Origin: Buchnera aphidicola (Brachycaudus cardui)
Lineage (GTDB): Bacteria; Pseudomonadota; Gammaproteobacteria; Enterobacterales; Enterobacteriaceae
Reading direction: 5' to 3'
Assembly: GCF_005081945.1 (NCBI RefSeq)
Contig: NZ_CP034879.1
Coordinates: 315,363 to 379,362 of the forward strand
DNA length: 64,000 nucleotides
Made by a program: the position numbers and the translations under genes. A model generated the notes under the pieces. That model was not told where the DNA came from. It saw only the letters and a program-made list of their open reading frames with translations, and made no database searches. Positions 13,836 to 58,164 of this stretch are shown piece after piece; positions within the stretch are counted from its first letter, which is position 1, and each line of letters starts with the position of its first letter.

Positions 13836-15049
13836 ATGAATTTTTTACCTTTGCTAATTGTAAAACGATTAGGTTTAAAAAAAGACAAAAGTTATATGGT
13901 ATTATTTATTTCCATTTTATCTAAGATGGGAATATCTATTAGTGTTTTTGCATTACTTATAAGTTTTAGTGCATTTAACGGTTTTCAAATATTTTTGAAT
14001 AAAAAAATTTTATCAACTTTACCTCATGGAATTATTCAGTTCACTGATAAAACATCATTAAAATGGCAAGATGTAATTAAAAAATTATTTTTATTTCCAG
14101 AAATTACCTATTGTGAGCCTTATATTATAGCTAATGGATTTTTAATAATTAATAATGAAATCAAACTGATTGAAATTAAAAGTTTTAGTAATATTGAATA
14201 TTTAAAAAAAAAATTTCTTTAATAAACAATAAAAGTGATTTTGGACAAAAAAACTATAAATATCAAATTATTATTTCATCTTATTTAGCAAATGATTTAT
14301 TAATTAAAAAAAATGATTCAATTAAATTACTTTTTTTTAATTCACATTTACAAAATTTTTCTTTTAAAATAAAAGATATATTTGAGTCAAACGGATTTTT
14401 AGATACAAATGTAGCATATATACCTTTTGAATTTTTTCAAAAATTTTTTAATATAAAAGATAACATTAATGCAATTGAATTACATATGTCTAATCCTTTT
14501 AATGCTAATGAAATTCTTAAAAAGGTAATAAAAAAAATAGATACTCCTCTTTTTACATATAGTTGGATTAATAGTTATAAATATATATACGACGACATCA
14601 AAAAAATGAAAGTCATGATATATTTTATACTATTTTTACTAACAATTATTTCGTCTTTTAGCATTACATCTATTTCAATTATGACTATATCTAAAAAAAC
14701 ACAAGAAATTGCTATTTTACGTACTATGGGCGCTACTAAGTTTCTTATTCAAATAATTTTTGTATATTATGGATTACGTTCTGTAATCGTTGGAGCTTTT
14801 ATTGGTTTAATCACAGGTATCATAACAGTTTTAAATTTTGAAAATATAGTATTTTTGTTAAATAAATACTTTAAGGATAATATACTATTAGATAATATCT
14901 ATTATCATCATTTTTTAATATTGAAACTAAATATTTCAGACATAATAATAATATTTACGACTACTATAATAATAGGAATAATAGCAAATTGGTATCCAGC
15001 ATATTACGCTTCAAAAATTAATCCTAGTAAAATATTAAAAGAATACTAA
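13836..15049 (+). pseudogene. lolE: Lipoprotein-releasing permease LolE, frameshifted in a 10-A run
   Basis: Third LolCDE subunit. The first frame (13836-14222) gives the N-terminal helix and early periplasmic domain (FLPLLIVKRLGLKKDKSYM, FSAFNGFQIFLNKKIL) and stops just after a run of ten A at 14204-14213. Continuing in the -1 frame from that run gives an open frame with no stop to 15049, covering the rest of the periplasmic domain and the three C-terminal helices with KKTQEIAILRTMGATK and NWYPAYYASKINPSKIL. One extra A, or two fewer, would restore about 404 codons, the normal family length. An internal ATG at 14486 is not a natural start. It could be a young pseudogene, be rescued by slippage, or be a homopolymer read error. 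Confidence 0.9.
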
Positions 15050-15143
15050 CATGATTTATATTTCATTAATTAAATAATAATAATATATATTAAAATAAAA
15101 TATTTTCAATTTTAGAAATGCTATATTTTAAAAAGAGGAAAAA

Positions 15144-16142
15144 ATGACTATTAAAGTTGGAATTAATGGATTTGGTCGTATTGGACGTGTATTATTTCGA
15201 TTAGCTCAAAAACGTTCAGATATTGAAATTATAGCTATTAATGACTTATTAAGTCCTGAATATATAGCTTATATGTTAAAATATGATTCTACTCATGGAA
15301 TGTTTAGAAAGAATATTAAAGTTGGAAAAGAATCTATTACTATAGATGGTCAAACTATCAGAATTACTGCAATAAAAGATCCTGAAAAATTAATGTGGGG
15401 TAACTTATCTATTGATGTTGTTATTGAATCAACAGGTCTTTTTTTAACGAAAGATACTGCTTATAAACATATTTTAGCTGGATCAAAAAAAGTAGTTATA
15501 ACAGGACCATCTAAAGATGGTATTCCTATGTTTGTTAGAGGAGCTAATTTTGATCAATATAAAGGAGAAAATATTGTATCAAATGCTTCATGTACTACTA
15601 ATTGTTTAGCTCCTTTATCTAAAGTTATAGATGATGAATTAGGCATTATAGAAGGTTTAATGACTACTGTTCACGCTAGTACAGCTACTCAAAAAATTGT
15701 TGATAGTGCATCTTCTAAAGACTGGAGAGGTGGTAGAGGAGTATTACAAAACATTATTCCATCATCTACTGGAGCAGCTATTGCTGTAGGAAAAGTTTTA
15801 CCTAACTTAAATGGTAAATTAACTGGTATAGCATTTAGAGTACCTGTATCAAATATATCTGTAGTAGATTTAACAGTACGATATAAAAAAACAGCTACAT
15901 ATAAAGAAATATGTGAGATAATTAAATACGCTTCTCAAGAAGAAATGCGAGATATTATAGGATATACTGAAGATGAAGTAGTATCTTCAGATTTTAACGG
16001 TCAAGAATTAACTTCTATATTTGATGCTAAAGCAGGTTTATGTTTAAATAAAAATTTTGTTAAATTAATATCTTGGTATGATAATGAAACAGGTTATTCT
16101 AGTAAAGTTCTTGATCTAGTATCTTTAGTAGCTAAAATATAA
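15144..16142 (+). CDS. gapA: Glyceraldehyde-3-phosphate dehydrogenase A
   Basis: NAD-dependent glycolytic enzyme. It has 332 aa, against 331 in E. coli. The Rossmann start is [17 protein letters not shown], the catalytic Cys is in [13 protein letters not shown] (near residue 150), and the His and Arg regions are in [10 protein letters not shown] and [14 protein letters not shown] strong ribosome-binding site (agagga) precedes the ATG. It is followed by a hairpin shared with the opposing queF gene. Confidence 0.98.
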
Positions 16143-16199
16143 TATTTTTTTATATTTTAATTATATAATGAGAATATGTTTTATTTTTTTATCTCAAAT

Positions 16200-16238
16200 A
16201 AATAGCAGTATTGAATATTTCATTTAATACTGCTATTT
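16200..16238. terminator. Two-way terminator between gapA and queF
   Basis: Perfect 13-bp stem aaatagcagtatt / aatactgctattt with a 13-base loop, between two convergent genes. It is flanked by T-rich sequence on the plus side (tatatttt) and A-rich sequence upstream, so it can work in both directions. Confidence 0.75.
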
Positions 16239-16261
16239 ATATTTTAAAAAACATTCTATTT

Positions 16262-17050
16262 TTATTGTCTAGCCATTCTAATAAGACATGGGGAAAAAGG
16301 AGTATTGCTACGCCATGGATTAATATCAATACCACCTCTACGTGTATATCTTGCATATACGCTCAGTTTTTTAGGTTTACAGATATTTTCAATATCATTA
16401 AAAATTCTTTCAATGCACTCTTCATGAAATTCATTACAACTACGAAAAGAAATTAAATAAAATAGCAATGCAGCATGATTAATTTTTTGACCAGAATATA
16501 TAATTTGTATTGATGCCCAATCAGGTTGTTTAGTAATTGGACAATTAGATTTTAATAAATGACTATATAAAGATTCTTCTACTATTTCATTATTAGAAGA
16601 ATTAATAAGTAATAACGGATTATATTTATAAGATGTAACTTGAATATCTTGATTATCTATACACATTCCATAGAATTCTGATATTTTTTGATTTTTAATC
16701 TCATTTAAATTAAATAATTTTATAGAGACTTCTCCACACACACATTTTATAAGATCTAGTTCTAAAGTCTTAACTAATGTTGTATGATGATCAAATTTAA
16801 TTTGATGAAAACTATTTATATAAATTTTCAAACTTTTAGATTCAAAAATATTTTTACTAGTCACATTAACTTCTACTCTAGCAATGGCTATTTGGGGTAA
16901 TCCGTTTCTGTTCAACCATGATAATTCATATAATGTCCAAATATCTTTTCCAATAAAAGGCAAATGGATATAATTTAATTCAATCATCTTACGATGTTTG
17001 TCACGAGGAATACTTTTTAATAAACTAAAATGATCTATTTGAGAGTTCAT
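16262..17050 (-). CDS. queF: NADPH-dependent 7-cyano-7-deazaguanine reductase
   Basis: Reduces preQ0 to preQ1 in queuosine tRNA modification. This is the two-domain (YqcD) type, with 262 aa against 282 in E. coli. The catalytic Cys is in LLKSNCPITKQPDW, and the second half of the fold has EFHEECIERIFNDI and YARYTRRGGIDINPWRS. GKDIWTLYELSWLN marks the N-terminal T-fold half. The shortening is all at the N-terminus, before that half begins. It lies 104 bases downstream of fldA on the same strand. Confidence 0.95.
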   Translation of the reverse strand: MNSQIDHFSLLKSIPRDKHRKMIELNYIHLPFIGKDIWTLYELSWLNRNGLPQIAIARVEVNVTSKNIFESKSLKIYINSFHQIKFDHHTTLVKTLELDLIKCVCGEVSIKLFNLNEIKNQKISEFYGMCIDNQDIQVTSYKYNPLLLINSSNNEIVEESLYSHLLKSNCPITKQPDWASIQIIYSGQKINHAALLFYLISFRSCNEFHEECIERIFNDIENICKPKKLSVYARYTRRGGIDINPWRSNTPFSPCLIRMARQ

Positions 17051-17154
17051 ATTTTTTCTTTTTATTTATTTTTTTAAATATTAGTATAAAAAATATTTTT
17101 TATATAATTATCTTTAAAAAATAATATGATTCTTTTAAAGAAAGTATATATATT

Positions 17155-17676
17155 TTATGTTACATTGAGAATAATATTAGGAAGAATTTTTTTTATCCAC
17201 TCTACAACTCTTAATTTAGTTTTATCTGATTGACGATCTTCATCTAAAACTAATCCGAAAAAATAATCTTTATTTAATAAAGCTTTAGAATTGTCAAAAT
17301 TATATTCTTTTGTAGACCATTTTCCAATTATATTAGCATTATTTTTTTTTAATATATTATATATTACTCCTATTGCATCACAAAAATATTCACCATAATC
17401 TTCTTGATCACCACATCCAAATAATGCTACAGTTTTATTTGAAAAATTAATTTTTTTCAGAATAGGTAGAAAATCATCCCAATCACATTGTACTTCACCA
17501 TAGTACCAAGTAGGTATTCCTAATATTAAAAAATTAAAAGATTCCATATCTTGTTTAGAAGTATTACAAATATCATATAATGTAGCAATTTTTTCACCTA
17601 TACATTGTTGTATTAATTTTGCTATTTTCTCTGTGTTTCCAGTATCACTTCCAAAAAAAATACCTATTTTTTTCAT
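17155..17676 (-). CDS. fldA: Flavodoxin I
   Basis: Small FMN electron carrier. It has 173 aa, close to E. coli FldA (176). The phosphate-binding loop is [15 protein letters not shown] near the N-terminus. The aromatic FMN stack is in [17 protein letters not shown], and [18 protein letters not shown] is the second FMN loop. Likely clients in this window are IspG, BioB and RlmN, which need low-potential electrons in E. coli. The ribosome-binding site is an unusually G+C-rich aggcgg. Confidence 0.96.
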
Positions 17677-17862
17677 TTTAGCCGCCTATAATAAATATAT
17701 TATTAAAAACAAATAATATGTTAATGTATAAATATCTATATTTTATTGATATATAGAAAAATATAATTTTTAAAAGATTTTATATTAAAACTATTTAAAA
17801 AACGTTTTTATTATATTAATAAAAATTAAAATTTTTTAACAAAATAAAAAAATTAAAATATT

Positions 17863-19296
17863 ATGCAAAAAAATTTAATTTGGTTTCGAAATGATCTTCG
17901 TTTATATGATCATACAGCTTTAAATGAAGCATGTAAATCTGATGAAGATCAAGTAATAGCTTTGTTTATTGCTACTCCTGAGCAATGGAGTAATCATTTT
18001 ATGTCTAGTAAAAAAATATCTTTTCTTTACTACCATTTAATCTCTTTAAAAAAAGAATTATTAAAATTAAATATTATTTTACATTATTATGAATCTACTA
18101 ATTTTTTAAAATCTATCGAATATTTAATGTATTTTTGTTCTCAACATAAAATAAATAATTTATTCTATCATTATGAATATGAAAATAATGAACGTAATAG
18201 AGATTGTTTAGTAAAAAAACAATTATCTCAACAAGGAGTTGTTGTAAAAGGTTTTCATGACAAACTTTTAGTTTCAGGCCAATACATAAAAAATAAAAAA
18301 AATCAAACATATAAAGTTTTTTCTTTTTTTAAAAAAAAAATAATAGAAAATTTACAGTATAATATACCTTTATGTTTTCCTATTCCCTCTAAAAGAAAAT
18401 TAAATAAAAATTCTTGTTCTCATTTTTTTTCTTCTGAAAAAATAAATCTTAACTTCAATAAAAAAATTTTTCCTATTGGAGAAATAGCAGCTATTAATAG
18501 ATTAAAAATTTTTTGTAAATATAAAGCAAATGATTATTTATTAAAAAGAAATTTTCCTTTTTTAGATAGTACAAGTATGTTATCTCCTTATCTATCTTTA
18601 GGAATAATATCATCTCGGCACTGTCTTATAAAGTTCTTAAAAGAACAAAAAAATATTTCATTAAATATTTTATACTCTTCATCTTGGTTGAATCAAATAT
18701 TATGGCGTGAATTTTATTATCATTTATTAATCGCTTTTCCAAAAATCAGTAGATATCAATCATTATCACTATGGGAAAAAAATATTGATTGGAGTACTAA
18801 TATAAAATATTTGAATGCTTGGAAGGAAGGAAATACTGGTTTTCCTATAGTAGATGCTGGAATGAGACAATTAAACAAACTAGGTTGGATGCATAATCGA
18901 TTAAGAATGATTACAGCAAGCTTTTTAGTAAAAAATCTTTTAATTAATTGGAGAGAAGGGGAAAAATATTTTATGTCTCATTTAATTGATGGAGATCTAG
19001 CATTAAATAATGGAGGCTGGCAGTGGTGTGCATCTGTTGGTAGTGACTCTGTACCTTATATAAGAATTTTTAATCCATGCAATCAATCAAAAAAAATTGA
19101 TAAATTAGGTATGTTTATAAAAAAATTTATCCCAGAGTTAAGACATGTACCTAACCAGTATATTCATCAACCGCAAGAATGGTCTCATCGAAATCATTAT
19201 AAAATAGATTATCCTGCTCCAATAATAAATTATAACGATAGTAGAAAAAAGGCTCTATTAATATTTAATAAAGCACGATTATCTTTTAAAAAATAG
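17863..19296 (+). CDS. phrB: Deoxyribodipyrimidine photolyase
   Basis: Light-driven repair enzyme that splits cyclobutane pyrimidine dimers, with FADH and a folate antenna. It has 477 aa, against 472 in E. coli. The N-terminal antenna domain starts NLIWFRNDLRLYDH. The FAD domain has WLNQILWREFYYHLL, GNTGFPIVDAGMRQLN and the Trp-rich block NNGGWQWCASVGSDS. A run of ten A at 18331-18340 is in frame here and does not break the gene. ybgI follows after 13 bases, and both genes are neighbours in E. coli. Confidence 0.97.
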   Translation: MQKNLIWFRNDLRLYDHTALNEACKSDEDQVIALFIATPEQWSNHFMSSKKISFLYYHLISLKKELLKLNIILHYYESTNFLKSIEYLMYFCSQHKINNLFYHYEYENNERNRDCLVKKQLSQQGVVVKGFHDKLLVSGQYIKNKKNQTYKVFSFFKKKIIENLQYNIPLCFPIPSKRKLNKNSCSHFFSSEKINLNFNKKIFPIGEIAAINRLKIFCKYKANDYLLKRNFPFLDSTSMLSPYLSLGIISSRHCLIKFLKEQKNISLNILYSSSWLNQILWREFYYHLLIAFPKISRYQSLSLWEKNIDWSTNIKYLNAWKEGNTGFPIVDAGMRQLNKLGWMHNRLRMITASFLVKNLLINWREGEKYFMSHLIDGDLALNNGGWQWCASVGSDSVPYIRIFNPCNQSKKIDKLGMFIKKFIPELRHVPNQYIHQPQEWSHRNHYKIDYPAPIINYNDSRKKALLIFNKARLSFKK

Positions 19297-19309
19297 GTAT
19301 AAAAAATTT

Positions 19310-20053
19310 ATGAAAAATTTTGTTTTAGAAGAAATTATTAATAAAAAATTATCATCTCAAAAATATACTGATATAGTTCCTAATGGTTTGCAAATTGAAG
19401 GTTCTAAAATAGTAAAAAAAATTATTACTGGAGTCACTGCTTGTCAAGATTTAATAGATGAATCACTATTATATCATGCTGATGCAATAATAGTACATCA
19501 TGGTTACTTTTGGAAAAATGAATCTCAATATATACATAATATGAAAAGAAATAGATTAAAAACTATACTCTCTAATGATATTAATTTATATAGTTGGCAC
19601 TTACCTTTAGATATTCATTCTGAATTAGGCAATAATGCACAAATAGCTAAAAAATTAAATATTTTTATTAAAGGTCATATTTTACCTTATGTATTTTGGG
19701 GTATTATAGAAGATAAAATAACTGGTGTTGATTTTGCAAAAAAAATAGAAAAAAAATATAAAAAATATCCTATACATGTATATAAAAATGCACCTCTTTA
19801 CATTAAACGTATTGCTTGGTGCAGTGGTAAAGGACAAAGTTTTATTAAAGAAGCATATGCATTTGGAATAGATGCTTTTTTAACAGGTGAAATTTCAGAA
19901 GAAACTACTCATATTGCTAAAGAATTAGGTATACATTTTTTTGCTTTAGGTCATCATATCACTGAAAAAGATGGTATTAAATCTTTAGGAGAATGGTTAT
20001 ATATTAAATACAATTTAGATGTTAATTTTATTGATATTTATAATCCAGCATAA
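19310..20053 (+). CDS. ybgI: NIF3/YbgI family metal-binding hydrolase-like protein
   Basis: It has 247 aa, the E. coli YbgI length. The family forms a toroidal hexamer with a dinuclear metal site, and its exact substrate is uncertain (annotated as GTP cyclohydrolase 1 type 2 homologue). Likely metal ligands are the two His of IIVHHGYFWK (near residues 63-64), the Asp of LPLDIHSELGNN and the His/Glu of LGHHITEKDG. DIVPNGLQIEG is the conserved N-terminal block. It sits between phrB and sucA. Confidence 0.9.
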   Translation: MKNFVLEEIINKKLSSQKYTDIVPNGLQIEGSKIVKKIITGVTACQDLIDESLLYHADAIIVHHGYFWKNESQYIHNMKRNRLKTILSNDINLYSWHLPLDIHSELGNNAQIAKKLNIFIKGHILPYVFWGIIEDKITGVDFAKKIEKKYKKYPIHVYKNAPLYIKRIAWCSGKGQSFIKEAYAFGIDAFLTGEISEETTHIAKELGIHFFALGHHITEKDGIKSLGEWLYIKYNLDVNFIDIYNPA

Positions 20054-20140
20054 TTATCGAAAAATAAAAAATCAGATGATAATATAAATGTTTAAACATT
20101 TATAATATTTAAGGTAGCAATTTCTTTTAAAAATAAAATT

Positions 20141-22879
20141 ATGAAAAAAAATCAAATAAAATATTGGTTACAGTCCTCTTGGTTGTCTATAAACAATCAA
20201 AATTATATAGAAGAAATATATAAAAATTTTTTAAAAAACCCCCAATCTATTGATATCTCTTGGCATTCTGCATTGTTAGATATTTCTCAAGATAAAAAAA
20301 ATATACATTATCTAGATAATTTAAAAGATCATAACTGTCAATTAATCGATAGAATGAATTCTATTATTAATACATTTCGTACACAAGGTTATAAACAATC
20401 TTTAATTGATCCTCTTCAATTACTAGAACAAAAAATTATTAAAAGTTTAGATTTGACATCTTATAATTTTACTAAAGAAGAAATAGAAAAAACTGTTGAA
20501 ATAAATTTCAAAAATAGTCATCAATTTAAAACAAATATTATAGATTTACATAAAACATTGTCTAAAAAATACTGCAGTTCTATTGGTTTTGAATATATGT
20601 ATATGGATAATGCATTAGAAAAAAAATCAATTTCAGATTATATAGAATCTTTTTATCAAGAAGAATTATTAAAAACAGAAGAAAAAATTAATTTTTTAAA
20701 AGAAATAACTTATGCTGAAATGTTAGAAAAACATTTGGGAAAAAAATTTCCTGGTGTTAAAAGATTTTCGTTAGAAGGAGCTGAAGCATTAATTCCAATA
20801 TTGCATGAAACTATAAGATACTCAAAAAAAAATAATATATCTGAAATAATATTGGGTATGGCTCATAGAGGTAGATTAAACGTACTAGTGAATGTTTTAA
20901 ATAAAAGTCCTGAAATCTTATTTAAGGAATTCTCTGGTACTAGTATATTAAAAAATATTAGTGGTGATGTGAAATATCATATGGGAGGTATTTCAGAAAT
21001 AAAAAATGAGAAAACAATATTATTTAAAATGGCATGTAATCCATCTCATTTAGAAATAATTAGCCCAGTAGTCTCAGGAATGGCTCGATCTTCTATTGAT
21101 CAATTAGGAAAATGTAATAGCGAAATATTACCCATTAATATTCATGGAGATGCTTCTGTAATCGGTCAAGGTGTAGTACAAGAAACATTGAATATGTCTC
21201 AAACAGAAGGCTATCAAGTAGGAGGTACCATTCATATCGTTATTAATAATCAAATTGGATTTACTACTTCTGACCCAAAAACACTTCGTTCAAGTCAATA
21301 TTGTACTGATATCGCTAAAATAATTCAAGCACCAATATTTCACGTTAATGCAGACGATATAGAAGCATGTATTTTTACTATACAATTAGCTCTTTATTTT
21401 AGAAATAAATTTAAAAAAGATGTTTTTATAGATCTTGTATGTTATAGACGTCATGGACATAATGAAGTAGATGATCCATCTGTTACACAACCTATTATGT
21501 ATCAAAAAATAAATAATCATCCTACTGTAAGAGAAATATATTCTAATTTATTAATATTAAAAAAAATAATCACACCTCAAAAAAATCAAGAAATTATGAA
21601 TAAATATTCTTATAAATTAAGAACAGGTGATCATATTTTTTCAAGACATAAAAAAATTAATTTTCAATATGAAAAACCTGTAACTTCTTTCAAGGAAAAA
21701 AATATAAAACAGATTATAAAAAATATAAATCAAGCTAATTTAAAAAAATTATCCTATTTAATTAATAGTATTCCTGATTCAATTAAGATGCATCCTAGAG
21801 TAAAAAATATTTATGAAGATAGATTAAAAATGTCTAAAGAATTAAAATTATTTGACTGGGGTGCAGCTGAAACATTAGCTTATGCAACAATTATCAACGA
21901 AGGTATTTCTTGTAGATTTTCAGGAGAAGATGTAAGTAGAGGTACTTTTTTTCATCGACATGCATTCATTCATGATCAAATTAATGGTTCTATTTATATA
22001 CCTTTAAATCATATTAGAAAAAAACAAGGAAAATTTCAAATTTGGAATTCTGTACTATCTGAAGAAGCAGTATTAGCTTTTGAATATGGTTATTCTTTAT
22101 TTCCATCTAAAACATTAACTATTTGGGAAGCTCAATTTGGAGATTTTGTTAATGGTGCTCAAATAGTTATTGATCAATTCATTAGTTCTGGTGAACAAAA
22201 ATGGAATCAAAACTGCAATTTAGTTATTTTATTACCTCATGGATATGAAGGACAAGGACCTGAACATTCATCAGGAAGAATTGAAAGATTTCTACAACTT
22301 TGCGCAGAAGAAAATATACAAATATGTATACCTACTACATCTTCACAAATATTTCATATTTTACAACAACAAATATTCAATGAAATTTACAAACCACTCA
22401 TTATATTTACTCCTAAATCTCTTTTAAGACATCCTATGGCAAGATCTTCTTTAGATACTCTTATCAATGGAAGTTTTAAGAAAATAATAGATGAAATAGA
22501 TCATAATAATAAAATAGCAAAACGTCTTATTTTTTGTACTGGAAAAATCTATTATGATTTATTAGAAAAACGTCGTAACAATAATATTGTGAATATTATT
22601 TTAGTGCGTATTGAACAATTATATCCATTTCCTCATAATGAAATATTAACCATATTAAAAAAATATTTTTATATAAAAGATTTTATTTGGTGTCAAGAAG
22701 AACCTTGTAATCAAGGTGCATGGTTTTATATTAAAAATTATTTAAATGATATGATTCCGTCAAATGCTTCATTAAAATATATTGGTCGTTTATCTTCTGC
22801 TGCACCTGCAGTAGGATATATATCTTTACATAAAATACAACAAGAAAAAATAATTAATACTGCATTAAATATTAATTAA
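20141..22879 (+). CDS. sucA: 2-oxoglutarate dehydrogenase E1 component
   Basis: Thiamine-diphosphate decarboxylase subunit of the 2-oxoglutarate dehydrogenase complex, giving succinyl groups to SucB. It has 912 aa, against 933 in E. coli. Blocks seen are the E1 N-terminal [68 protein letters not shown], and the C-terminal pyrimidine-domain [20 protein letters not shown]. sucB follows after 15 bases, so they form an operon. The sdhCDAB genes upstream and sucCD downstream in E. coli are gone. Confidence 0.98.
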
Positions 22880-27807: not shown

Positions 27808-28092
27808 CTATTTGTATATATTCGTACAAATTCGTAATTGTTTACCTGGTTTGAAATAGGGGACATATTTTTCATTTAATTTGACTATTTTTCCAGTTTT
27901 TGGATTTCGACCAATACGAGCGGAACGATAATGTAAAGAAAAACTGCCAAATCCTCGAATTTCAATTCTTTGACCTTTTGCTAACGACATTGTCATATGT
28001 TCTAACATTTCTTTTATAGCACTTTCTATTATCTTATTTGAAATATGAATTTTTTTTTCTGAAATTCTTTCAAATAATTCTGACTTTGTCAT
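27808..28092 (-). CDS. ihfB: Integration host factor subunit beta
   Basis: DNA-bending nucleoid protein of the HU/IHF family. It has 94 aa, the E. coli length. [20 protein letters not shown] is the helical base, [15 protein letters not shown] is the beta body, and [15 protein letters not shown] is the DNA-intercalating arm with its Pro. It follows rpsA by 73 bases, as in E. coli. The partner gene ihfA is not in this window, so a homodimer cannot be ruled out. Confidence 0.95.
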
Positions 28093-29966: not shown

Positions 29967-30625
29967 TTATAAAATCTTTATCTTTTCAATGATGTATTCC
30001 ATTGAAGCTGTGGCTACCTCTGATAAATTCATATTAGTAGAATCTAATATTATAGCATTTTTTGGAATGCATAAAGGGGAAATTAAACGATTTTTATCTT
30101 GTTTATCACGATTTTTTATTTGTGTGGCTAACTCTTTAAAACTGATATAATAACCATTTTTATTTAATTCTAACATTCTTCTCTTTACACGTATTTCTAA
30201 ATGAGCATTTAAAAAAAATTTAAGCATAGCATCTGGAAAAACTACTGTGCCCATATCACGTCCTTCAGCTATTAAGCCAGGTAAACATCTTAATAATCTT
30301 TGTTTTTTTAGTAAAATTTTTCTCACTATAGGATAAGATGCTAATTGAGAAGATATTTGACTAACTTCATTAAGTTTAAGTAATTTAGAAGAATATTTTA
30401 TATTTTTTTTTTAATTAGTATAAAATCTAGTCTTTTTGCAATTGGAATTATATTTTTTTCAATAATATTAATTTTTTTATTTAATGCCAATAAAGCAATT
30501 AATCTATATATTTTCCCTGATTCTAATACAGACCAATTTAATTTTTTTGCTATCATTTTAGATAGTGTGCTTTTACCAACACCACTAGGACCATCAATAG
30601 TAATAACAGGAATTTTATTTATCAT
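29967..30625 (-). pseudogene. cmk: Cytidylate kinase Cmk, frameshifted in a 10-A run
   Basis: Phosphorylates CMP and dCMP. The first frame (30625-30398) holds the P-loop ITIDGPSGVGKSTLSKMIA and the LESGKIYR block, and stops just after ten A (T at 30403-30412 on the plus strand). The second frame, open from the run to 29967, holds the rest, with PGLIAEGRDMGTVVFPDA, KRRMLELNKNGYYISF and LDSTNMNLSEV. One extra A restores a single frame of about 220 codons, near the E. coli 227. Every active-site block is conserved. The gene is required in related bacteria for CDP supply, so rescue by slippage or a read error is more likely than true loss (inference). Confidence 0.9.
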
Positions 30626-30690
30626 GTGTTATATTATTTAATATTCAACAAATTTGTTTTTATTAACAAATATTTTTTTATTTATTAAAA

Positions 30691-43714: not shown

Positions 43715-45178
43715 ATGATTATAGAAATAAATGAACCTTGTGATTTAGTAATTTTTGGTGCAAAAGGAGATCTAGCAAAAAGAAAACTATTACCTGCTTT
43801 ATATAAATTAGAAAAATCTAAAAAAATTCACGAAAATACACGTATCATTGGTGCAGGACGTGCTAATTGGAGCATACAAGAATATAGAAAAATAGTAGAA
43901 AACGAAATTAAAACTTTTTTAAATGAAGAAATTGAAGATTATATTTGGAAAAAACTTAGTACTCGTTTATATTTTTGTAATATTGATGTTTTTGAAAAAT
44001 TACATTTTCTTAGATTAAAAAAAATATTACAACAAAAAAAAAATATAATGATTTACTATTGTGCTGTTCCTCCTAATACATTAAATGCTATTTTTAAAGG
44101 TTTAGGAGATTCAAACTTAAACTCTCTTCCAGCACGTATAGTATTAGAAAAACCATTAGGTGTTTGCTTAAAAACATCTCAAAAAATTAATAATCAAATT
44201 TCTAAATATTTTTTAGAATCACAAATTTTTCGCATCGATCATTATCTTGGAAAAGAATCAATACTAAATCTTCTTGCTCTAAGATTTGCTAATTCATTTG
44301 TTTTTAATAATTGGAATAATCAAACTATTGATCATATTCAAATTACTGTATCTGAAGAAGTTGGAATTGAAGGTAGATGGAATTATTTTGATGGTATGGG
44401 ACAAATGAGAGATATGGTACAAAACCATCTTTTACAAATATTAACTATTATTACAATGGATCAACCTAATAGTATTACATCTGAAAATATTCGACATAAA
44501 AAACTAAACATATTGCGTGCATTAAATCCTATTAATATTAATAATATTAATATAAAAACTGTTCGAGGACAATATAGTTCTGGAGTAATTAAAGGGAATA
44601 AGGTACCTGCTTATTTAGAAGAGCATGGTGCAAATAAAAATAGTCAAACTGAAACATTTGTTGCTGTTGAAGCCAATATTAATAATAAGAAATGGTGTGG
44701 TGTACCTTTTTATTTAAGAACAGGAAAACGTTTAGCATGTAAGTATTCTGAAATAGTCATTGTTTTTAAAAAAATACCTATAAATTTATTTCAAAATTCT
44801 AATTTAAAATTATTAGAAAATAAATTAATCATACGTTTAGAGCCAAATGCAAACATCAAACTTAATTTTTTTAATAAAATACCAGGATTAGATCAAGAAT
44901 ATAAACTAGACAATTCTCAACTAGAGTATAATTGTTTTCATAAAAAATCAATTGATGCCTATGAAAGATTATTATTAGAGAGTATGAGAGGTATACAATC
45001 TTTATTTGTATGTCGAGATGAAGTAGAAGAAGCATGGAAATGGATAGATCCTATTATAAATGCATGGAAACAAAAAGACAGTAGTATTCTTCAATTATAT
45101 ATGTCTGGAACCTGGGGACCAGAAGATTCAAATTTATTGCTTTCTCGTAATAATCATGTTTGGCATAAATATAATTAA
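43715..45178 (+). CDS. zwf: Glucose-6-phosphate 1-dehydrogenase
   Basis: First step of the oxidative pentose phosphate path, making NADPH and the lactone used by Pgl. It has 487 aa, against 491 in E. coli. The nucleotide loop is IFGAKGDLAKRKLLPAL, the catalytic block is FRIDHYLGKESI, and EKPLGVCLKTS and YLRTGKRLACKYSEIVIVFK are conserved. A run of ten A at 44034-44043 is in frame here. The ribosome-binding site is agagaag. Confidence 0.97.
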   Translation: MIIEINEPCDLVIFGAKGDLAKRKLLPALYKLEKSKKIHENTRIIGAGRANWSIQEYRKIVENEIKTFLNEEIEDYIWKKLSTRLYFCNIDVFEKLHFLRLKKILQQKKNIMIYYCAVPPNTLNAIFKGLGDSNLNSLPARIVLEKPLGVCLKTSQKINNQISKYFLESQIFRIDHYLGKESILNLLALRFANSFVFNNWNNQTIDHIQITVSEEVGIEGRWNYFDGMGQMRDMVQNHLLQILTIITMDQPNSITSENIRHKKLNILRALNPININNINIKTVRGQYSSGVIKGNKVPAYLEEHGANKNSQTETFVAVEANINNKKWCGVPFYLRTGKRLACKYSEIVIVFKKIPINLFQNSNLKLLENKLIIRLEPNANIKLNFFNKIPGLDQEYKLDNSQLEYNCFHKKSIDAYERLLLESMRGIQSLFVCRDEVEEAWKWIDPIINAWKQKDSSILQLYMSGTWGPEDSNLLLSRNNHVWHKYN

Positions 45179-48609: not shown

Positions 48610-49275
48610 ATGTCTAATATCATTTTAGCAATTGATACGTCAATTAATTATTGCTCAGTTGCTATATATAAAAAAAATAATGTTTATTTTATATCAGAGA
48701 AATGTGAAAAAAAACATACTTCTCAAGTGTTACCTATGATTCACAAATTACTATTACAGACACAAACAACATTAAAAGAATTACATTATATTGCTTTTGC
48801 AAAAGGACCTGGTAATTTTACTAGTATACGAATTGCAGAAAGTATTGCACAAAGTTTTGCTTTAAGTTTAAAAATTCCTATAATTGGTATTTCAACTTTA
48901 CTAATCATGGCTGAAAAAGCATGTCGGAAATATAAAAAAACAGAAATTATAGTTATAATAAACGCAAAAACGACACATTTATATTGGGCTGCATATATTA
49001 AAAATAAAAAATCTATTTGGACGGGAGAGCACACAGAATCTTTAGTAAAAAAAGAATTAGTACGAGATAAAATTAATGATTTAAAAAAGAAATGGACTAT
49101 TGTTAGCCATGAATATCAAACAATTGAATATAAAAAATTTGCAAATATCAACGATATTAAGATTTTTTTTCCTAATGCACGAGATATTATTCCATTTGTT
49201 TTACTAAAGATTAAAACTGGAATAATTTTGTATTCTGCAAAAAATGGTCCAAATTATTTATATAATAATTTTTAG
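48610..49275 (+). CDS. tsaB: tRNA t6A threonylcarbamoyl transfer subunit TsaB
   Basis: Partner of TsaD in making t6A37 of ANN-reading tRNAs. It has 221 aa, against 231 in E. coli. The ASKHA start ILAIDTSINYCSVAIY and the helix block FAKGPGNFTSIRIAESIAQS are typical. The C-terminus is shortened and Lys/Asn-rich. In E. coli this gene (yeaZ) also lies near minCDE and yoaE. It is convergent with minE across a hairpin. Confidence 0.94.
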   Translation: MSNIILAIDTSINYCSVAIYKKNNVYFISEKCEKKHTSQVLPMIHKLLLQTQTTLKELHYIAFAKGPGNFTSIRIAESIAQSFALSLKIPIIGISTLLIMAEKACRKYKKTEIIVIINAKTTHLYWAAYIKNKKSIWTGEHTESLVKKELVRDKINDLKKKWTIVSHEYQTIEYKKFANINDIKIFFPNARDIIPFVLLKIKTGIILYSAKNGPNYLYNNF

Positions 49276-49667: not shown

Positions 49668-49669
49668 AC

Positions 49670-51228: not shown

Positions 51229-51490
51229 ATTTATTTATTGCTCAATAATATTTGCTTATATGCAGACAAAATTTACATGAAGTATAAAATTTTTTTTTAA
51301 TAAAAAATAAATATTTAATTTAATATGGATTATATTATAAATACTCTTTGATAACAATTTCTATTTTTCATTAAAAATATATCAAAATAGTCAATTAAAA
51401 TAAGTTATAATTTTAACAAAAAACATCTTTATAAATAAACTTTTTCTTTTTAAAATTATATGTATTTAAAATATAAGGAATATATTAATT

Positions 51491-52508
51491 TTGTTATTTT
51501 CTAAAAGTAGTCAACTTATTTTACGTCATAGTAAAATCTTTAAAACAAAAAACGTTTTTTTTTCAGGAAACATACAAGATAATTTTCCTATATATTTATC
51601 AACAAGTAACAAAAAAATAAATCTTCAAAAATATAATGATTACATTAAGTTAAAAAAAAAATCATATAAAAAATTTTGAAATTTATAATAATTTATTAGT
51701 ATCTTATGAAATGGTCAAAAACTGCGATACAATCATTTATTATTGGCCTAAAAATAAGTCCGAGGCACTATTTCAGTTTATTAATTTAATATCTTGTTTA
51801 CCAATAAACACTCAAATATTTATTGTGGGAGAAAATTCTAGTGGAATAAAAAGTGCACCATTAATGTTAAAAAAGTGGATTACTTTATACAAAGTAGACA
51901 GCGCTAAACATTCTATACTCATGACAGGTTCACTTAAAAGAAAAAAACGTTTTTTATTAGAAGATTTTTTTAAAGTACATAAATGGAAAAATTTTTCTAT
52001 AAAATCTTTACCAGGTGTTTTTGGTGACAAAAAAATAGATGAAGGTAGCAAATTACTAGCTTCTACTTTTTCAAAAAGTATAACTGGAAAAATTTTAGAC
52101 GTTGGTTGTGGTACAGGATTTTTATCAGTATCGCTTCTAGATTGTTCACCAAATGTTGATATTACATTAATTGATAATAACAAAACTGCATTAAGATGTA
52201 GTCAAGTTACACTCGATGCTAATCAATTAAGGGGAAAAGTTCTTTGTAGTGATTTTTATTCAAATATATTTGAAAAGTTTGATTTGATTATTTCAAATCC
52301 ACCTTTTCATGATGATCTAAAAATAAACTTTAATATAGTAAAAAAAATAATATGTGATTCAGTAAATTATCTAAAATTTAGAGGTGAATTAAGATTTGTC
52401 ACTAATAGTTGTTTTGATTATAATTTTTTATTAAAAAAAACATTCAAAAGATATTCTATTATAGAAAAAACAAATAAGTATAAGATATATCAAGCTTTTT
52501 TAAATTAA
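51491..52508 (+). pseudogene. rsmC: 16S rRNA guanine-N2 methyltransferase RsmC, frameshifted in a 10-A run
   Basis: Methylates G1207 of 16S rRNA in E. coli. The first frame (TTG start at 51491) gives the N-terminal block SQLILRHSKIF, VFFSGNIQDNFP, and stops soon after ten A at 51652-51661. The +1 frame is open from the run to 52508 and gives NCDTIIYYWPKNK, VGENSSGIKSA, the SAM site LDVGCGTGFLSVSLL and the catalytic ISNPPFHDD. One fewer A joins them into about 339 codons, near the E. coli 343. An ATG at 51711 would give only a shorter protein lacking the N-terminal part. The start TTG has aagga 11 bases before it. Confidence 0.88.
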
Positions 52509-52532
52509 TTTTTAGTTATATATAATATTTTT

Positions 52533-52619
52533 TGGTACCCGGAGCGGGACTTGAACCCGCAAAGCTATAAAGCCGAGGGATTTTAAGTCCCTTGTGTCTA
52601 CCAATTTCACCATCCGGGC
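52533..52619 (-). tRNA. tRNA-Leu (anticodon UAA)
   Basis: Cloverleaf of 87 bases on the minus strand, beginning GCCCGGATGGTGAAATTGG with the anticodon loop CTTAAAA (anticodon TAA), a long variable arm, the T-arm GGGTTCAAGTCCC, and a 3' end TACCA. CCA is encoded. It is very close to E. coli tRNA-Leu UAA. Confidence 0.97.
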
Positions 52620-52633
52620 TGAAAAATTTTTAG

Positions 52634-52704
52634 AGGCGTATCCCGGAATCGAACCGGGTTATACGGATTTGCAGTCCGCTACATATCCAATCTGTCAATA
52701 CGCC
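52634..52704 (-). tRNA. tRNA-Cys (anticodon GCA)
   Basis: Cloverleaf of 71 bases on the minus strand, beginning GGCGTATTGACAG with the anticodon loop in GGACTGCAAATCC (anticodon GCA), the T-arm CCGGTTCGATTCCGG and the discriminator U typical of Cys. The 3' flank is CTA, so CCA is not encoded and must be added. Confidence 0.97.
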
Positions 52705-52859
52705 TATATAACTATTATAGAAAAAAAAAATATAAATTACAAACAAAAAAAAATTTTTTTAAAAGAAAATAATTTATTATTATATAATATAAAAAAATTA
52801 TCTTTACAATAAGTAAGATAATGATTTATTATTACTTAATATAAACTATTTTTACTATC

Positions 52860-52944
52860 GGAGAGGTGGCCGAGTGGTTTAAGGCAGCGGTCTTGAAAAC
52901 CGCCGACGAGCAATCGTCCGAGAGTTCGAATCTCTCTCTCTCCG
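52860..52944 (+). tRNA. tRNA-Ser (anticodon UGA)
   Basis: Cloverleaf of 85 bases, beginning GGAGAGGTGGCCGAGTGG with the anticodon loop in GGTCTTGAAAACC (anticodon TGA), a long variable arm (gacga/tcgtc stem), the T-arm GAGAGTTCGAATCTCTC and the discriminator G. CCA is not encoded (gaaaa follows the acceptor). Confidence 0.97.
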
Positions 52945-53005
52945 AAAATAAAAACATTAAAATAAATATTCGGTATATTAATAACCATTATTTTTCATAA
53001 TACAT

Positions 53006-54061
53006 TTATTGAGCATCAGTAGATAAAACTTCAATTTCTACACGGCGATCAGGAGCTAAACAACTAATTAACAAAGGTTTGTTTTCTATATCATTACATA
53101 CCTGATTAGTTAATGAATATAATTTTCCCATTCCTTGAATAGTGATTTGATTTCTAGAAAATCCTTTAGATGTTAAATAATTTTTAATACTATAAGCACG
53201 ATCTTCAGATAATTGTTGATTATATTCGTCGTCTCCTAACCTATCGGTATATCCTGAAAGAATAATTGAAATATTATTTAAATTCTTTTTTTTAATATTA
53301 TTATCTAATTGAGCAAGTTTATCATAAGCAATAGGTTTTAATTCTGTACTATTAAAAGGAAAATTAATATTTTCATTAAATACAGTATATGGTTTGTTTA
53401 AAAAATTATCATCTTCAGATGAAAAAACATCATTTACATGAGATTCACCAAATTTCCATCCAAAAGACAACACTGCATCTCCTAAAGAAGGTTTTATAGA
53501 TGCATCTATTATGTTCTTAATAGTATTTTTCCAAGTATAATCTATTCTAGTGATAAATTGTTTATTAAAAATATATTCTGCTCCTAAAGAAAGGCTAGGA
53601 AATATTTTACTTTCTTTATTAAACATATTTTTTAAATCTTCTTTAGAAGTAAGATCATCCCAAAAAACTATTCCTCCTAATCGTGTATAAAGATGAAAAT
53701 CATCTGTTATAGGATATGATAATTTTGTTGCAAGTTGAACACTATTGATTTGTGCACTTTGTGCATGTTGAAGCATTTGATGAGGGAAAAAACCATTAGT
53801 ATCATTTTCTATTTCAAAAGAAAAATATGGATTAAACTCATACCCTAAAAATACTCCAATGATTGGAGCACTTAAATTTTTTTGTAATAAATTAATATCA
53901 CTCTCAGCGTCTTTGGAATCTTTAATAATATTATATTTTAAAGGATCAAAATGTGACCATCCAATTTTTGCACCTAGATACCATGCATTTTTTTCTTCGG
54001 CTTGAACAGATGTGACTAAGCTTGCTAATAAAAATGCGATAGCAAAAGCTCGTTTTTTCAT
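53006..54061 (-). CDS. ompA: Outer membrane protein A
   Basis: Abundant outer-membrane porin and peptidoglycan anchor. It has 351 aa, against 346 in E. coli. The signal peptide is [19 protein letters not shown], with a cut after QA. The 8-strand barrel covers about residues 22-195 ([14 protein letters not shown]), and the C-terminal OmpA domain has [19 protein letters not shown] and PDRRVEIEV. The ATG at 54061 follows a very good ribosome-binding site (ggag, 6 bases). A start at 54073 would overlap it. Confidence 0.97.
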
Positions 54062-54180
54062 TTGAAACTCCATTGTTTTATAGATAAATTGTAAATTGAT
54101 GAAAGTGTATAATATATTTATATAAAAAAATAATTTATTGTAAATCTAGTAATATTCTTAAAATATTATATAGCAAATGT

Positions 54181-54231
54181 AACGTTAATCATATATCAAT
54201 AACAATATATCAGTGATATATGATTAACATT
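54181..54231 (-). terminator. Long hairpin after murJ, upstream of ompA
   Basis: 18-bp stem with one mismatch, aacgttaatcatatatca / tgatatatgattaacatt, with a 15-base loop. It starts 13 bases after the murJ stop on the minus strand, so it likely separates murJ from ompA. Confidence 0.65.
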
Positions 54232-54243
54232 ATATTACTTTAA

Positions 54244-55779
54244 TCAAGAAAAATTATAAGAAAAATTTAATAAACGTATTCCTAAAAAATGTAACATAAC
54301 TAAGTAACTGATTCCAGAAATAAAACAAACAAAAATTAAACGAATTATTTTATTTAAAAAAGAACCTGTACTCCAAAGAGGCATAAAATGTAATATACAA
54401 AATAAAATAAAAAGCATTACTAATACTGCTAAAATTAAACGAAAAAGAAAAAAAAATTCATTATATTTAAAAAAAATTATTTTTCTTTGATGTAATTTCC
54501 AATAAAGTAATAAAAAATTTATCCATCCAGATATACTAACAGATAAAGCAAGACCAGCATGTTTAAAATAAAAAATAAAAATTGGATTCATTAATTGTGT
54601 TAAAAATAGTGTTAATAATGAAATCTGCATGGGAATATGTATTTCTTCAGAAGCATAAAAAGCCGAGGCTAATATTTTTACTAAGATAAAAGACACTAGA
54701 CCCAAAGCATATAGCTCTAATACTCTTTTAGTCATTAAAACATCAAAATTTGTAAATTTTCCATATTGAAAAAGAACTATAATAATAGGTTTGGCAAGAA
54801 AAAATAGTATAACAGCACTTGGTAATGATACTATCAAACCAATACGTAACCCCCAATCAAGCAATTTCTTGTATTCTGACTTTATACGATATTTATATCG
54901 TTTAGTAAGAGATGTAAATAAGATAGTACTTAATGACACACCTAATATACCTACTGGAAATTCTATTAATCGATCAGCATAATATATCCAAGATATTGAT
55001 CCTGAACATAATAATGAAGTAAAAATAGTATTAATAATTAAAGAAATTTGATTTGCAGAAGTTCCTAAAATAGTAGGTCCTATTTTTTTTAAAAATCTTA
55101 AAAGACCAATATTATTCCAACTTAAATTAGGTATAACTAACATATTTATTTTGTATAATAATGGCAATTGATAGCATAATTGAATAAAACCACCGATAAT
55201 AACAGCCCATGCTAAAGAAATAATAGAAGGATTAAAAAAAGAACTAAAAAAAATAGAAAAAAAAATAATACTAATATTTAAAAATATTGAAGATAAAGCC
55301 GGAATCGAGAAATAATTCCAACTATTTAAAATAGATGAAAAAAATGAAGATAAAGAAATGAATAAAATATAAGGCAACATAATCGTTAGTAAATGTTCAG
55401 ATAATTTTAATTTTTCGGGTAATTCTGTAAAACCTGGAGCATTAATTAAAATTAAAAAGCGAGAAAAAAACATTCCTAGTATTATTACTATAGACATAAA
55501 AAAAATTATAAAACTAAATATAGAAGAAATAAAATCTTGAATATATTTTTTGTTTTGACAAGTTTTATACTCTATTAATATAGGTACAAAAATTTGAGAA
55601 AACGAACCATCAGAAAAAATACGACATAATAAATTAGGAATTTTAAAAGATATAAAAAAAGCATCAGTAAACATAGAAGCACCAAATGTACTAGCAATTA
55701 AAACATCTCGAATGAAACCTAATATACGAGATAGTAAAGTCATACAGCTTACTGATATTAAAGATTTTAAAAGATTCAT
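54244..55779 (-). CDS. murJ: Lipid II flippase MurJ (MviN)
   Basis: MOP-family membrane protein that moves lipid II across the inner membrane for peptidoglycan synthesis. It has 511 aa, as in E. coli, with about 14 membrane helices. Conserved blocks are SVSCMTLLSRILGFIRDVLI, ASMFTDAFFISFKIPNLLCR and FSQIFVPIL near the N-terminus, and DRLIEFPVGILGVSLSTILF in the middle. It is divergent from pyrC over 112 bases. Confidence 0.96.
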   Translation of the reverse strand: MNLLKSLISVSCMTLLSRILGFIRDVLIASTFGASMFTDAFFISFKIPNLLCRIFSDGSFSQIFVPILIEYKTCQNKKYIQDFISSIFSFIIFFMSIVIILGMFFSRFLILINAPGFTELPEKLKLSEHLLTIMLPYILFISLSSFFSSILNSWNYFSIPALSSIFLNISIIFFSIFFSSFFNPSIISLAWAVIIGGFIQLCYQLPLLYKINMLVIPNLSWNNIGLLRFLKKIGPTILGTSANQISLIINTIFTSLLCSGSISWIYYADRLIEFPVGILGVSLSTILFTSLTKRYKYRIKSEYKKLLDWGLRIGLIVSLPSAVILFFLAKPIIIVLFQYGKFTNFDVLMTKRVLELYALGLVSFILVKILASAFYASEEIHIPMQISLLTLFLTQLMNPIFIFYFKHAGLALSVSISGWINFLLLYWKLHQRKIIFFKYNEFFFLFRLILAVLVMLFILFCILHFMPLWSTGSFLNKIIRLIFVCFISGISYLVMLHFLGIRLLNFSYNFS

Positions 55780-55891
55780 GCTAAACTAACCTATAGCTAT
55801 AACAAATATCTTAATGTTATTTTAAGAAAATGACATTAATGTTATATCAATTTAAATTGATGCTTATTCTCTATAATTAAGGCAATCAAAA

Positions 55892-56950
55892 ATGTCAGAA
55901 TTTGAACAAAAAATAACTATTATAAAACCTGATGATTGGCATGTTCATTTAAGAGATAAAAAAATTTTAAAAAAAGTTATTCGATATACTGGTAAATTTT
56001 ATGAAAGAGCATTAATTATGCCAAATCTTGATGATCCTATTACAAATTGCTTTAAAGGTATTTCTTATCGTAATAGAATTTTAAAATCTATGCATTTATG
56101 TTATCAATTTCAACCATTAATGACTTGTTATTTAACTAGTTTTACTATTCCTGAAGAATTAGAAATTGGATTTTTTAAAAAAATCTTTATAGCAGCTAAA
56201 TTATATCCTTACTGTTCTACAACTAATTCAAAAAAAGGTGTAAGAAAAATTAGTCATATCACTCATGTATTAGAACGTATGGAAAAAATCGGTATGCCAT
56301 TATTAATTCATGGTGAAAAGGTTAATAAACATATTGATATCTATGCTAGAGAAGCAGAATTCATTAAAAATACTTTAGAACCGTTACGTAATAATTTTCC
56401 AAAATTAAAAATAGTCTTAGAACATATTACCACTAGAGAATCTGTAGAATATATTAAAAAAAATGGTTCTAATTATTTATGTGCAACAATTACACCTCAT
56501 CATTTAATGTTGAATCGAAATGATATGTTTGCAGGTGGCATTCAACCTTATCTGTACTGTTTACCTATTTTAAAAAAAAACATACACCAAAAAGCATTAA
56601 GACAAGCCATTGCCAGTGGAAACAAACATTTTTTTTTAGGAAGTGATACAGCACCACACTTACATAAAAATAAAATTAATTTATTTGGTTGCGCAGGTAT
56701 ATTTAATGCTCCATCTTCTTTTTTAGCTTATGTTACAGTTTTTGAAGAAATGAAAGCTTTAAAACATTTACAAGCTTTTTGTTCAGAAAATGGTCCTAAT
56801 TTTTATAACATACCGATTAATAAAAAAACTATAACATTAATTAAAAAACCATGTAAAATAACAAAAAAAATTAATATCGGAAATGATAAAATTATTCCAT
56901 TTTTATCAGGTGAAACTTTAAATTGGTCAATTAAAAGTTTTCCTGAATAA
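55892..56950 (+). CDS. pyrC: Dihydroorotase
   Basis: Third step of pyrimidine synthesis, closing carbamoyl-aspartate to dihydroorotate. It has 352 aa, against 348 in E. coli. The zinc site is DDWHVHLRD near residue 15. LIMPNLDDPITN, the carbamylated-Lys region AAKLYPYCSTTN, the His pair of LLIHGE and VLEHITT, and the catalytic Asp of FLGSDTAPH are all present. The ribosome-binding site is taagg. It is convergent with flgN after 36 bases. Confidence 0.97.
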   Translation: MSEFEQKITIIKPDDWHVHLRDKKILKKVIRYTGKFYERALIMPNLDDPITNCFKGISYRNRILKSMHLCYQFQPLMTCYLTSFTIPEELEIGFFKKIFIAAKLYPYCSTTNSKKGVRKISHITHVLERMEKIGMPLLIHGEKVNKHIDIYAREAEFIKNTLEPLRNNFPKLKIVLEHITTRESVEYIKKNGSNYLCATITPHHLMLNRNDMFAGGIQPYLYCLPILKKNIHQKALRQAIASGNKHFFLGSDTAPHLHKNKINLFGCAGIFNAPSSFLAYVTVFEEMKALKHLQAFCSENGPNFYNIPINKKTITLIKKPCKITKKINIGNDKIIPFLSGETLNWSIKSFPE

Positions 56951-56986
56951 ATTATTATTAGTCCTTTTAAAACTATCATACAACAT

Positions 56987-57393
56987 TTAAATTTCTACAT
57001 TTCCGCTAATGTTATAAGTAATACATTTTTGATGGGATGTAAGTAATTCTAAAAAATGCTGATTCAAATAAAATTTTTTATTTAAAAGAATTTTATTTTG
57101 ATGATTTAATTGTTTTAAAAACAAGCATTTTTTAATAATAAAATTCCAATGTTTATTTAATTTAAAATATTTTAAATAAGGAGAGAATATGTTATATTTT
57201 TCTTCAAGAAAAACTCTCTCTTTATTCAATTTTGAAAACAAATTGAAAGAATCTTCTTTTTTTTTATTATTATTTTTAGTTCATTTATAGTCGCATTAGA
57301 ATCTAATAAATATTTATGCTCTTGATTAAGTATAGTATCTAAAGATAATAAGGTATTTTCTATTTTTTTTATTATGTCTATTAATTTTTTCAT
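56987..57393 (-). pseudogene. flgN: Flagellar export chaperone FlgN, frameshifted in a 9-A run
   Basis: FlgN is the chaperone for the hook-filament junction proteins FlgK and FlgL. From an ATG at 57393 the minus strand reads MKKLIDIIKKIENTLLSLD and on to NATINELKIII, then reaches a run of nine A (T at 57257-57265 on the plus strand) and goes out of frame. The other frame runs from the run to 56987 (KLNKERVFLEEKYN to the end SGNVEI). One extra A gives a single frame of about 136 codons, against 138 in E. coli. The identity rests on length, coiled-coil character and position before flgA, since FlgN sequences diverge quickly. Confidence 0.75.
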
Positions 57394-57505
57394 ATGATAT
57401 TTACAAAATTTTTTTCTATAAATAATAAGATTTTTACATAAAGATATTATTACATCAATAAAAAATTATATTTTTATAAAATAGTGTGTGTTGTTTATAG
57501 TGTAT

Positions 57506-58164
57506 TCATGCAGATACTATAACTTCTTTATTTTTATTTATAATGCCTGTCAGAATTTGACCATTTTTTGTTTTAACACGTATTTTATCATTTTCTGCTC
57601 CATTATTTAATGATATTGCCGTAGAAGAAATAGTAAAATTTTCTTCATGAATAATAATAATAACTTTTTGATTTACTTTTACTAACCAAAATGGACGTAT
57701 CATAAAAGATGTGATTGGCTGTAAAGGAAAAATATCACGTAAACTAACTTTATCAATAACATCTTCTTTCTTAAAATAAGTATTTTTAGGCAGTGTATCT
57801 AACCGACCAATTAACATCTTTAAATCTGATATTTGTATTTTAGTACCTCGTAAAATTTTTCTTTTTGCTACAATATATTCTCCTTTTGTTTGAAGTTCCA
57901 CTTGTAAGTAGTAGTGTCGTTGATTACAAGTTAACAGAACATCCACTAAACCTAAATAACGAAAATTACTTGGTACTGAAAAAAAAGGTTTTTTACAATA
58001 TATATTTTTTTTTAATTGAGTACGTATTATAACATGAATATGATCTTTTTTAATAGGATACTCTTTTTTAAAAAAATGAATTAATTGATCAGTTAAACTA
58101 ATAGCATTAACTTTAAAAGATAAAAAAACCAAAAAAAAACAAATTATTATTTTTTTAATAACAT
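57506..58164 (-). pseudogene. flgA: Flagellar P-ring chaperone FlgA, start broken by a 7-A run
   Basis: Periplasmic protein that helps assemble the FlgI P ring. The mature part (SAF-like domain, from about ISLTDQLIHFFK to the end) is intact with conserved REILRGTKIQ-like and PFWLVKVNQKV blocks, total about 219 codons if repaired, the E. coli length. An ATG at 58164 with an ideal ribosome-binding site (aagga, 5 bases) begins MLLKK but meets TAA after a run of seven A (T at 58150-58156 on the plus strand). One extra A gives the signal peptide MLLKKIIICFFLVFLSFKVN. Without it, only a TTG at 58132 or a rare ATT could start the frame. Confidence 0.8.

Follow-up and report, generated by a model that had tools for sequence, protein, structure and literature searches.

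One-base changes in poly(A) runs of lolE, cmk and rsmC in Buchnera aphidicola (Brachycaudus cardui): alleles that are probably still in use

Introduction

Three genes of Buchnera aphidicola (Brachycaudus cardui), lolE, cmk and rsmC, lose their reading frame through a one-base change in a run of adenines, and the occurrence of breaks at shared places in related genomes, together with clean downstream frames and purifying selection, points to real genomic alleles in which both sides of the protein are used and which are probably rescued by slippage on the run. These genes lie in a stretch of 64,000 bases (the window, which here means the whole stretch analysed), which belongs to a chromosome of 643,931 bases, in an assembly of 654,826 bases and three contigs. 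Another contig of that assembly, of 7,687 bases, is plasmid-like: its closest relatives are the Buchnera leucine plasmids (best 86%, in the M. persicae Buchnera), and all 52 of the 52 matching records are from Buchnera.

An earlier note on this DNA had placed lolE, cmk, rsmC, flgN and flgA together as five genes broken in the same manner. This single class was rejected, given that flgA presents a start problem and flgN may be decaying.

Materials and Methods

The comparison set consisted of 36 Buchnera genomes, the window's included (35 relatives), with murJ present in all 36, and intact proteins were aligned to the five loci in these genomes with a frame-tolerant aligner. Where the stop-to-stop references extend beyond the N-terminus, events and stops were judged by eye to be alignment effects; this applies to many rows of rsmC, to several of lolE and of flgN, and to the flgA of G009, and the rsmC rows concerned are open from residue 2-6 on. 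C-terminal cmk events in G015 and G028 were left out by eye on the same grounds, and a second flgN event near residue 15 was set aside, as it is absent with a trimmed reference.

The tree was built from seven concatenated proteins (2,221 columns), with 4 genomes lacking pyrC and 1 lacking flgE, and it groups the window with its sister G022, and then with G026. No match of useful length to pyrC (55892-56950 of the window) was found in the murJ stretch of G013, G016, G018 and G019, and a loss of pyrC is given for the U. ambrosiae Buchnera in a passage of Degnan et al. 2011 (PMC3164680). Parsimony changes of the broken state were compared with 2000 shuffles over 36 genomes for lolE, 35 for rsmC and 29 for cmk, with lost or decayed genes excluded.

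For selection, the two halves of each gene were compared by pairwise dN/dS, each in its own frame. A neutral simulation covered about half of a pairwise dS, with rates chosen by the analyst and 1000 runs per case. In addition, a catalogue of breaks was compiled from 47 proteins in 19 genomes, that is, 893 pairs, of which 761 are intact, 18 have no match and 114 were aligned, some of these being cut by the end of the stretch.

Results

Frames and A-runs in the window

The sequence check found the five A-runs, as well as the two control runs, exactly where the earlier note had placed them. The claim that five genes are out of frame at these runs stands for lolE, cmk, rsmC and flgN, while flgA loses only its usual start. 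The accompanying observation that runs of ten adenines also occur in intact genes was borne out, as the A10 runs of phrB (18331..18340) and zwf (44034..44043), both on the forward strand, lie within open frames. In G011 and G001, the phrB gene (17863-19296 of the window, where it is intact with its A10) has lost its frame at A9 runs.

In lolE, on the forward strand, the upstream frame (13836..14222; 128 aa, matching positions 2-115 of the LolE model) is displaced by -1 at the A10 run at 14204..14213, and the downstream frame (14198..15049) remains open for 283 codons, clean to its stop; the sister genome presents the same run with the same break. In cmk, on the reverse strand, an upstream frame of 76 open codons (30401..30628) is displaced by -1 at an A10 run of the coding strand (T10 on the forward strand, 30403..30412), followed by a downstream frame of 147 open codons plus the stop (29967..30410). 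In rsmC, on the forward strand, the A10 run at 51652..51661 separates an upstream frame (51470..51676) from a downstream frame of 284 open codons plus the stop (51654..52508), with a displacement that is +1 here and -1 in seven of the eight other broken genomes. In each of these three genes, then, two frames overlap, and each frame matches one part of the same protein; the frame-tolerant alignment places in every gene a single frame event, at the run, with no stop.

The flgN gene, on the reverse strand, likewise has one change of length in a long A-run and no stop; an A9 run of the coding strand (T9 forward, 57257..57265) lies between the upstream frame (57229..57465) and a downstream frame (56990..57280) that has no NCBIfam match at 1e-10. 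In flgA, on the same strand, the run is only an A7 and lies at the start: the usual ATG, at 58164, opens a five-codon frame (58147..58164) which ends in a TAA (58147-58149) after the run (T7 forward, 58150..58156), and this run lies between the usual start and the long open frame (57506..58186; 226 codons stop to stop at 57509-58186, with a TTG at 58132 as its first listed start). The 226-codon frame matches nearly the whole protein, so that only the usual start is severed. The displacement in the window is -1 in lolE, cmk, flgN and flgA, and +1 in rsmC.

Distribution of the breaks among Buchnera genomes

Conservation of the break between species is clear for lolE, while the breaks of cmk and rsmC are recurrent, with weak or no clustering. 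The lolE gene is broken in 9 of the 36 genomes, each time by -1. The break in the A10 run is common to the window and G022; a second run, an A11 slightly downstream, is broken in the whole of a four-member clade (G007, G003, G027 and G004); and the gene is also broken in G029, G016 and G019. These breaks are clearly inherited, with a broken state that takes 4 changes on the tree, a number as low in only 1 of the 2000 shuffles. In the part of Charles et al. 2011 that bears on this gene, lolE is listed as a pseudogene in the Buchnera of A. pisum and S. graminum. In G001, taken as the S. graminum genome, the frame of lolE is open from end to end, and the mismatch with that listing may reflect a different assembly version, strain or criterion.

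The rsmC gene is broken at A-runs in 9 of 35 genomes, with a decayed copy in the 36th, G011. Two -1 events in G019 were counted in the +1 class, and the gene of G018 is broken (-1) at a different run. The broken state takes 6 changes, as low in 72 of the 2000 shuffles, and the breaks are weakly inherited.

In 14 of the 29 genomes that keep cmk, the gene loses its frame at a poly(A) run around residues 65-86, by -1 in 13 of them and by +1 in G021, and it has no internal break in 15 of the 36 genomes. The run reads as A9 followed by C in six genomes. The window is broken and its sister G022 intact; over the tree the gene mostly toggles between the two states, with 8 changes, as low in 315 of the 2000 shuffles, so that the clustering is not significant. 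Some lineages of Buchnera can do without CMP kinase, given that cmk is gone in G005, G016, G018 and G019 and decayed in G001, G008 and G009 (7 of 36 together). In a search of the wider family, a cmk match was present in 109 of the 119 genomes, and most of those outside the genus consisted of one long match with no more than one stop. Within the part of the literature covered, no title or start of an abstract reported a cmk break in Buchnera.

As for the remaining genes, flgN is broken by -1 at A-runs in the window, G027 and G031 among the 36 genomes, and that of G018 has one event, away from any A-run. The flgA gene is broken by -1 at an internal A10 in G024, and the window's own flgA break occurs in no other of the 36 genomes. 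When the five loci are pooled over the 36 genomes, 34 displacements are of -1 and 3 belong to the +1 class.

Selection on the broken genes

A dN/dS value from a broken pair tests the broken state only where the break goes back to the split of that pair, which holds best for lolE. Among the pairs listed, with some sets given in part, downstream values range from 0.16 to 0.54 in broken pairs overall, against 0.18-0.43 in intact ones. For lolE, the four-species broken clade gives 0.16-0.45 (6 of 6 pairs), and the pairs with both members broken give 0.36 (window and G022) and 0.54 (G016 and G019), whereas intact pairs lie at 0.19-0.30 (3 of 15 pairs listed in one set, 10 of 10 in another), and 5 of the 8 downstream values of broken lolE exceed the highest intact value, 0.304. 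For cmk, the large broken clade gives 0.27-0.38 among the 5 of 28 pairs listed, and pairs with both members broken give 0.27 (window and G026) and 0.45 (G012 and G014), with intact pairs at 0.19-0.43. For rsmC, broken pairs lie at 0.19-0.30 among the 3 of 15 pairs listed and intact pairs at 0.18-0.34. The gene lolE is constrained where broken, but less than where it is intact (partly relaxed), and the broken pairs of cmk and rsmC look like intact genes in their constraint.

Purifying selection is accordingly accompanied, in the broken state, by a clean rest of the gene in lolE (in its partly relaxed form), cmk and rsmC, and none of the three presents the extra stops or indels, or the dN/dS near 1, of an ordinary pseudogene. 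In the neutral simulation, which accumulated a mean of 4.5-13.3 stops, no run out of 1000 remained without a stop for lolE (three cases) or rsmC (one case), and 9 of 1000 did so for cmk (two cases). The earlier claim that both sides of each break are kept is therefore upheld for the halves of lolE, cmk and rsmC, with dN/dS well below 1, and lacks such support in flgN and flgA.

Downstream replacement changes on the window branch and on the G022 branch are, respectively, 43.8 and 40.2 in lolE, 13.8 and 22.2 in cmk, 25.7 and 30.8 in rsmC, and 19.4 and 19.1 in flgA. In flgN the totals are 29.6 and 17.1 (downstream 16.6 and 10.6, upstream 13.0 and 6.5). Per codon, the window branch carries 0.16 replacement changes in lolE and 0.21 in flgN, both above the 95th percentile of 0.145 among 42 control genes. 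The flgN gene evolves faster in the window and may be decaying; together with the flgA start, its change is probably recent and less constrained, and may lead to loss.

Run length and direction in the catalogue

The 893 pairs of the catalogue contain 34 clean single breaks (one internal frame event, no stop), of which 30 are labelled with a coding-strand A-run of at least 9. As lolE of G003 and of G004 adjoin A11 runs, 32 of the 34 lie at such runs, which is more than chance, and the two away from runs are flgB in G029 and tsaB in G001. The share of runs broken is 9/439 for A9, 13/124 for A10, 7/24 for A11 and 3/6 for A12 or more. Another 7 pairs carry a stop or several events, and a long A-run is assigned to none of those events. 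These pairs are rsmC in G011, cmk in G009, the gene at 17155 in G001, the gene of 94 codons at 27808 in G032, and the gene of 825 codons at 8939 in G013, G001 and G004.

Clean single breaks are of -1 in 31 instances and of +1 in 3. As the pairs lack independence, origins at runs were counted by eye over the catalogue and the 36-genome set, which gave about 20 at -1 and 4 at +1. The -1 sense is the one offset by a one-base insertion in the transcript or by a -1 slip of the ribosome. The excess of -1 was nonetheless rejected as proof of rescue, because a deletion-biased replication slippage could give the same excess. Coding-strand T-runs of at least 9 are broken in 0 of 165 instances; the asymmetry between the strands (30 labelled breaks in 593 A-runs against 0 in 165 T-runs) was judged not significant once independent origins and length are considered.

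The window had been put forward as a dense example of such breaks. It is so only mildly: it holds 4 clean single breaks among the 47 proteins, but G029 also has 4, one of them away from any A-run, and G001 and G013 have 3 each.

Two further genes of the catalogue may be mentioned. The tsaB gene (48610-49275 of the window) is intact here and presents a frame change at A-runs in G022 (A10), G007 (A12) and G013 (A10, in the +1 sense); its product, TsaB, is essential in E. coli. In bioD (4472-5143 of the window), G001 has a frame change at an A13, and no other clean break of the catalogue lies at so long a run.

Discussion

Homopolymer read or assembly error, which the earlier note wished to see eliminated first, is improbable here, even though 454 data of the M. 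persicae Buchnera are reported, in a passage of PMC3890641, as unreliable in poly-A-rich regions. In separate species' assemblies, including those taken as A. pisum Tokyo (G029) and M. persicae G002 (G026), the same runs or runs close by are also broken, which makes a general read error unlikely for lolE and cmk, and for rsmC as a class; flgN and flgA have no such support. The runs of ten in phrB and zwf also remain in frame, and an error of this type should ignore the strand, yet no T-run is broken, an argument that is weak by independent origins and length. A somewhat stronger case, though still an unlikely one, is that of early pseudogenes, in which the breaks would be recent losses in a drifting symbiont, with clean halves too young to have decayed. 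The states of cmk and rsmC do toggle on the tree, and their weak or absent clustering means that many breaks may be recent and repeated. Moreover, cmk is gone or decayed in several genomes, one of the three events in the decayed copy of G008 lying beside an A9/A8 run; the constraint on broken lolE is partly relaxed; replacement changes in flgN are more numerous on the branch of the window than on that of its sister; and Degnan et al. 2011 (PMC3164680), in the passage concerned, count homopolymer breaks mostly in single genomes. On the other hand, the lolE break is common to a four-species clade and to the pair of the window and G022, with downstream dN/dS still low, cmk, rsmC and flgA are not accelerated on the window branch relative to the sister branch, and stops or several events mark the genes whose decay took another course (rsmC in G011; cmk in G001 and G009).

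The preferred reading remains that of lolE, cmk and rsmC as used alleles, for which slippage on the A-run would occur either in the RNA polymerase, which would add an extra A in some transcripts, or in the ribosome, through a -1 slip on A AAA AAA. Either way, a fraction of full-length protein would be made, which may be sufficient in a host-restricted symbiont. As slippage on A-runs would favour the insertion sense, -1 alleles would persist and +1 alleles would be rarer; the +1 of the window's rsmC, opposite to the main direction, counts against this explanation. In the portion of Traverse and Ochman 2017 (PMC5574713) devoted to Buchnera transcripts, 151 of 157 insertions fall in homopolymer runs, with an exponential rise with length, which fits the -1 excess and the length trend found here; the same portion reports no transcript error that restores a reading frame in Buchnera. 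A 2016 review (PMC5009743) gives, in the relevant passage, 12-50% corrected transcripts for such endosymbiont genes. That the ribosome rather than the RNA polymerase is responsible, possibly at a programmed site, is a tentative alternative which overlaps the favoured explanation: A AAA AAA occurs within the runs of lolE, cmk and rsmC, and such a slip offsets -1, but stimulators were absent from the 19 sites tested of the 32 broken lolE, cmk and rsmC sites. None of these 19 has AGGA, GGAG or GAGG within 22 bases upstream, and the downstream folding is ordinary in 18 of them (100 mononucleotide shuffles each), with rsmC of G029 (z -3.2) as the sole value below -2. Whichever the agent, polymerase or ribosome, rescue of the poly(A)-broken genes is likely.

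Frameshifts of this type are already described for Buchnera, and the genes of the window belong to a known kind. Tamas et al. 2008 reportedly showed, in Buchnera and Blochmannia, that transcriptional slippage rescues frameshifts at poly(A) runs. The likeness lies in a single indel in a long A-run of an otherwise intact gene, in an AT-rich insect symbiont and the same genus; unlike that study, where transcripts were measured, the present cases are known from sequence alone, and the passages that cite it name cell-wall genes and a histidine gene, not lolE, cmk or rsmC. Wernegreen et al. 2010 are likewise said to have found ancient homopolymer frameshifts kept by selection in Blochmannia, which are similar in being common to several species without degradation of the gene, but which concern another symbiont and other genes. 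A Blochmannia paper (PMC3017870) also states, in part, that some homopolymer frameshifts are conserved between species without degradation. For Buchnera, six Aphidinae genomes carry 8-18 homopolymeric frameshifts each, according to the corresponding passages of Degnan et al. 2011 (PMC3164680), which also describe repeated independent breaks, such as in murF, and suggest a regulatory role for the class. In contrast to that class, the present comparison covers 36 genomes for five genes and includes a clade-wide lolE break, with direction and selection measured. Programmed frameshifting or slippage of the dnaX type shares the A-rich slippery site, and differs in that no stimulators were found here at the tested sites and only one useful product is evident. 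What may be new, as a detail, is the lolE break of a whole clade together with the selection measured on it.

A broader and more tentative proposal is that in Buchnera the frame at long A-runs is almost free to drift by -1, with slippage of the insertion type so frequent that it forms a standing decoding step and not an occasional rescue, and with a tolerance that rises with run length, in which case out-of-frame alleles such as lolE would be inherited by whole clades as working genes. Genes of this type are often entered as dead in the inventories of reduced genomes, and, if they are decoded, each inventory would be in error by several genes. Sister species in which one and the same gene is in frame and out of frame, as with cmk, broken in the window and intact in G022, provide a natural experiment, and the comparison carries a predicted direction and a length dependence that are open to cDNA sequencing.
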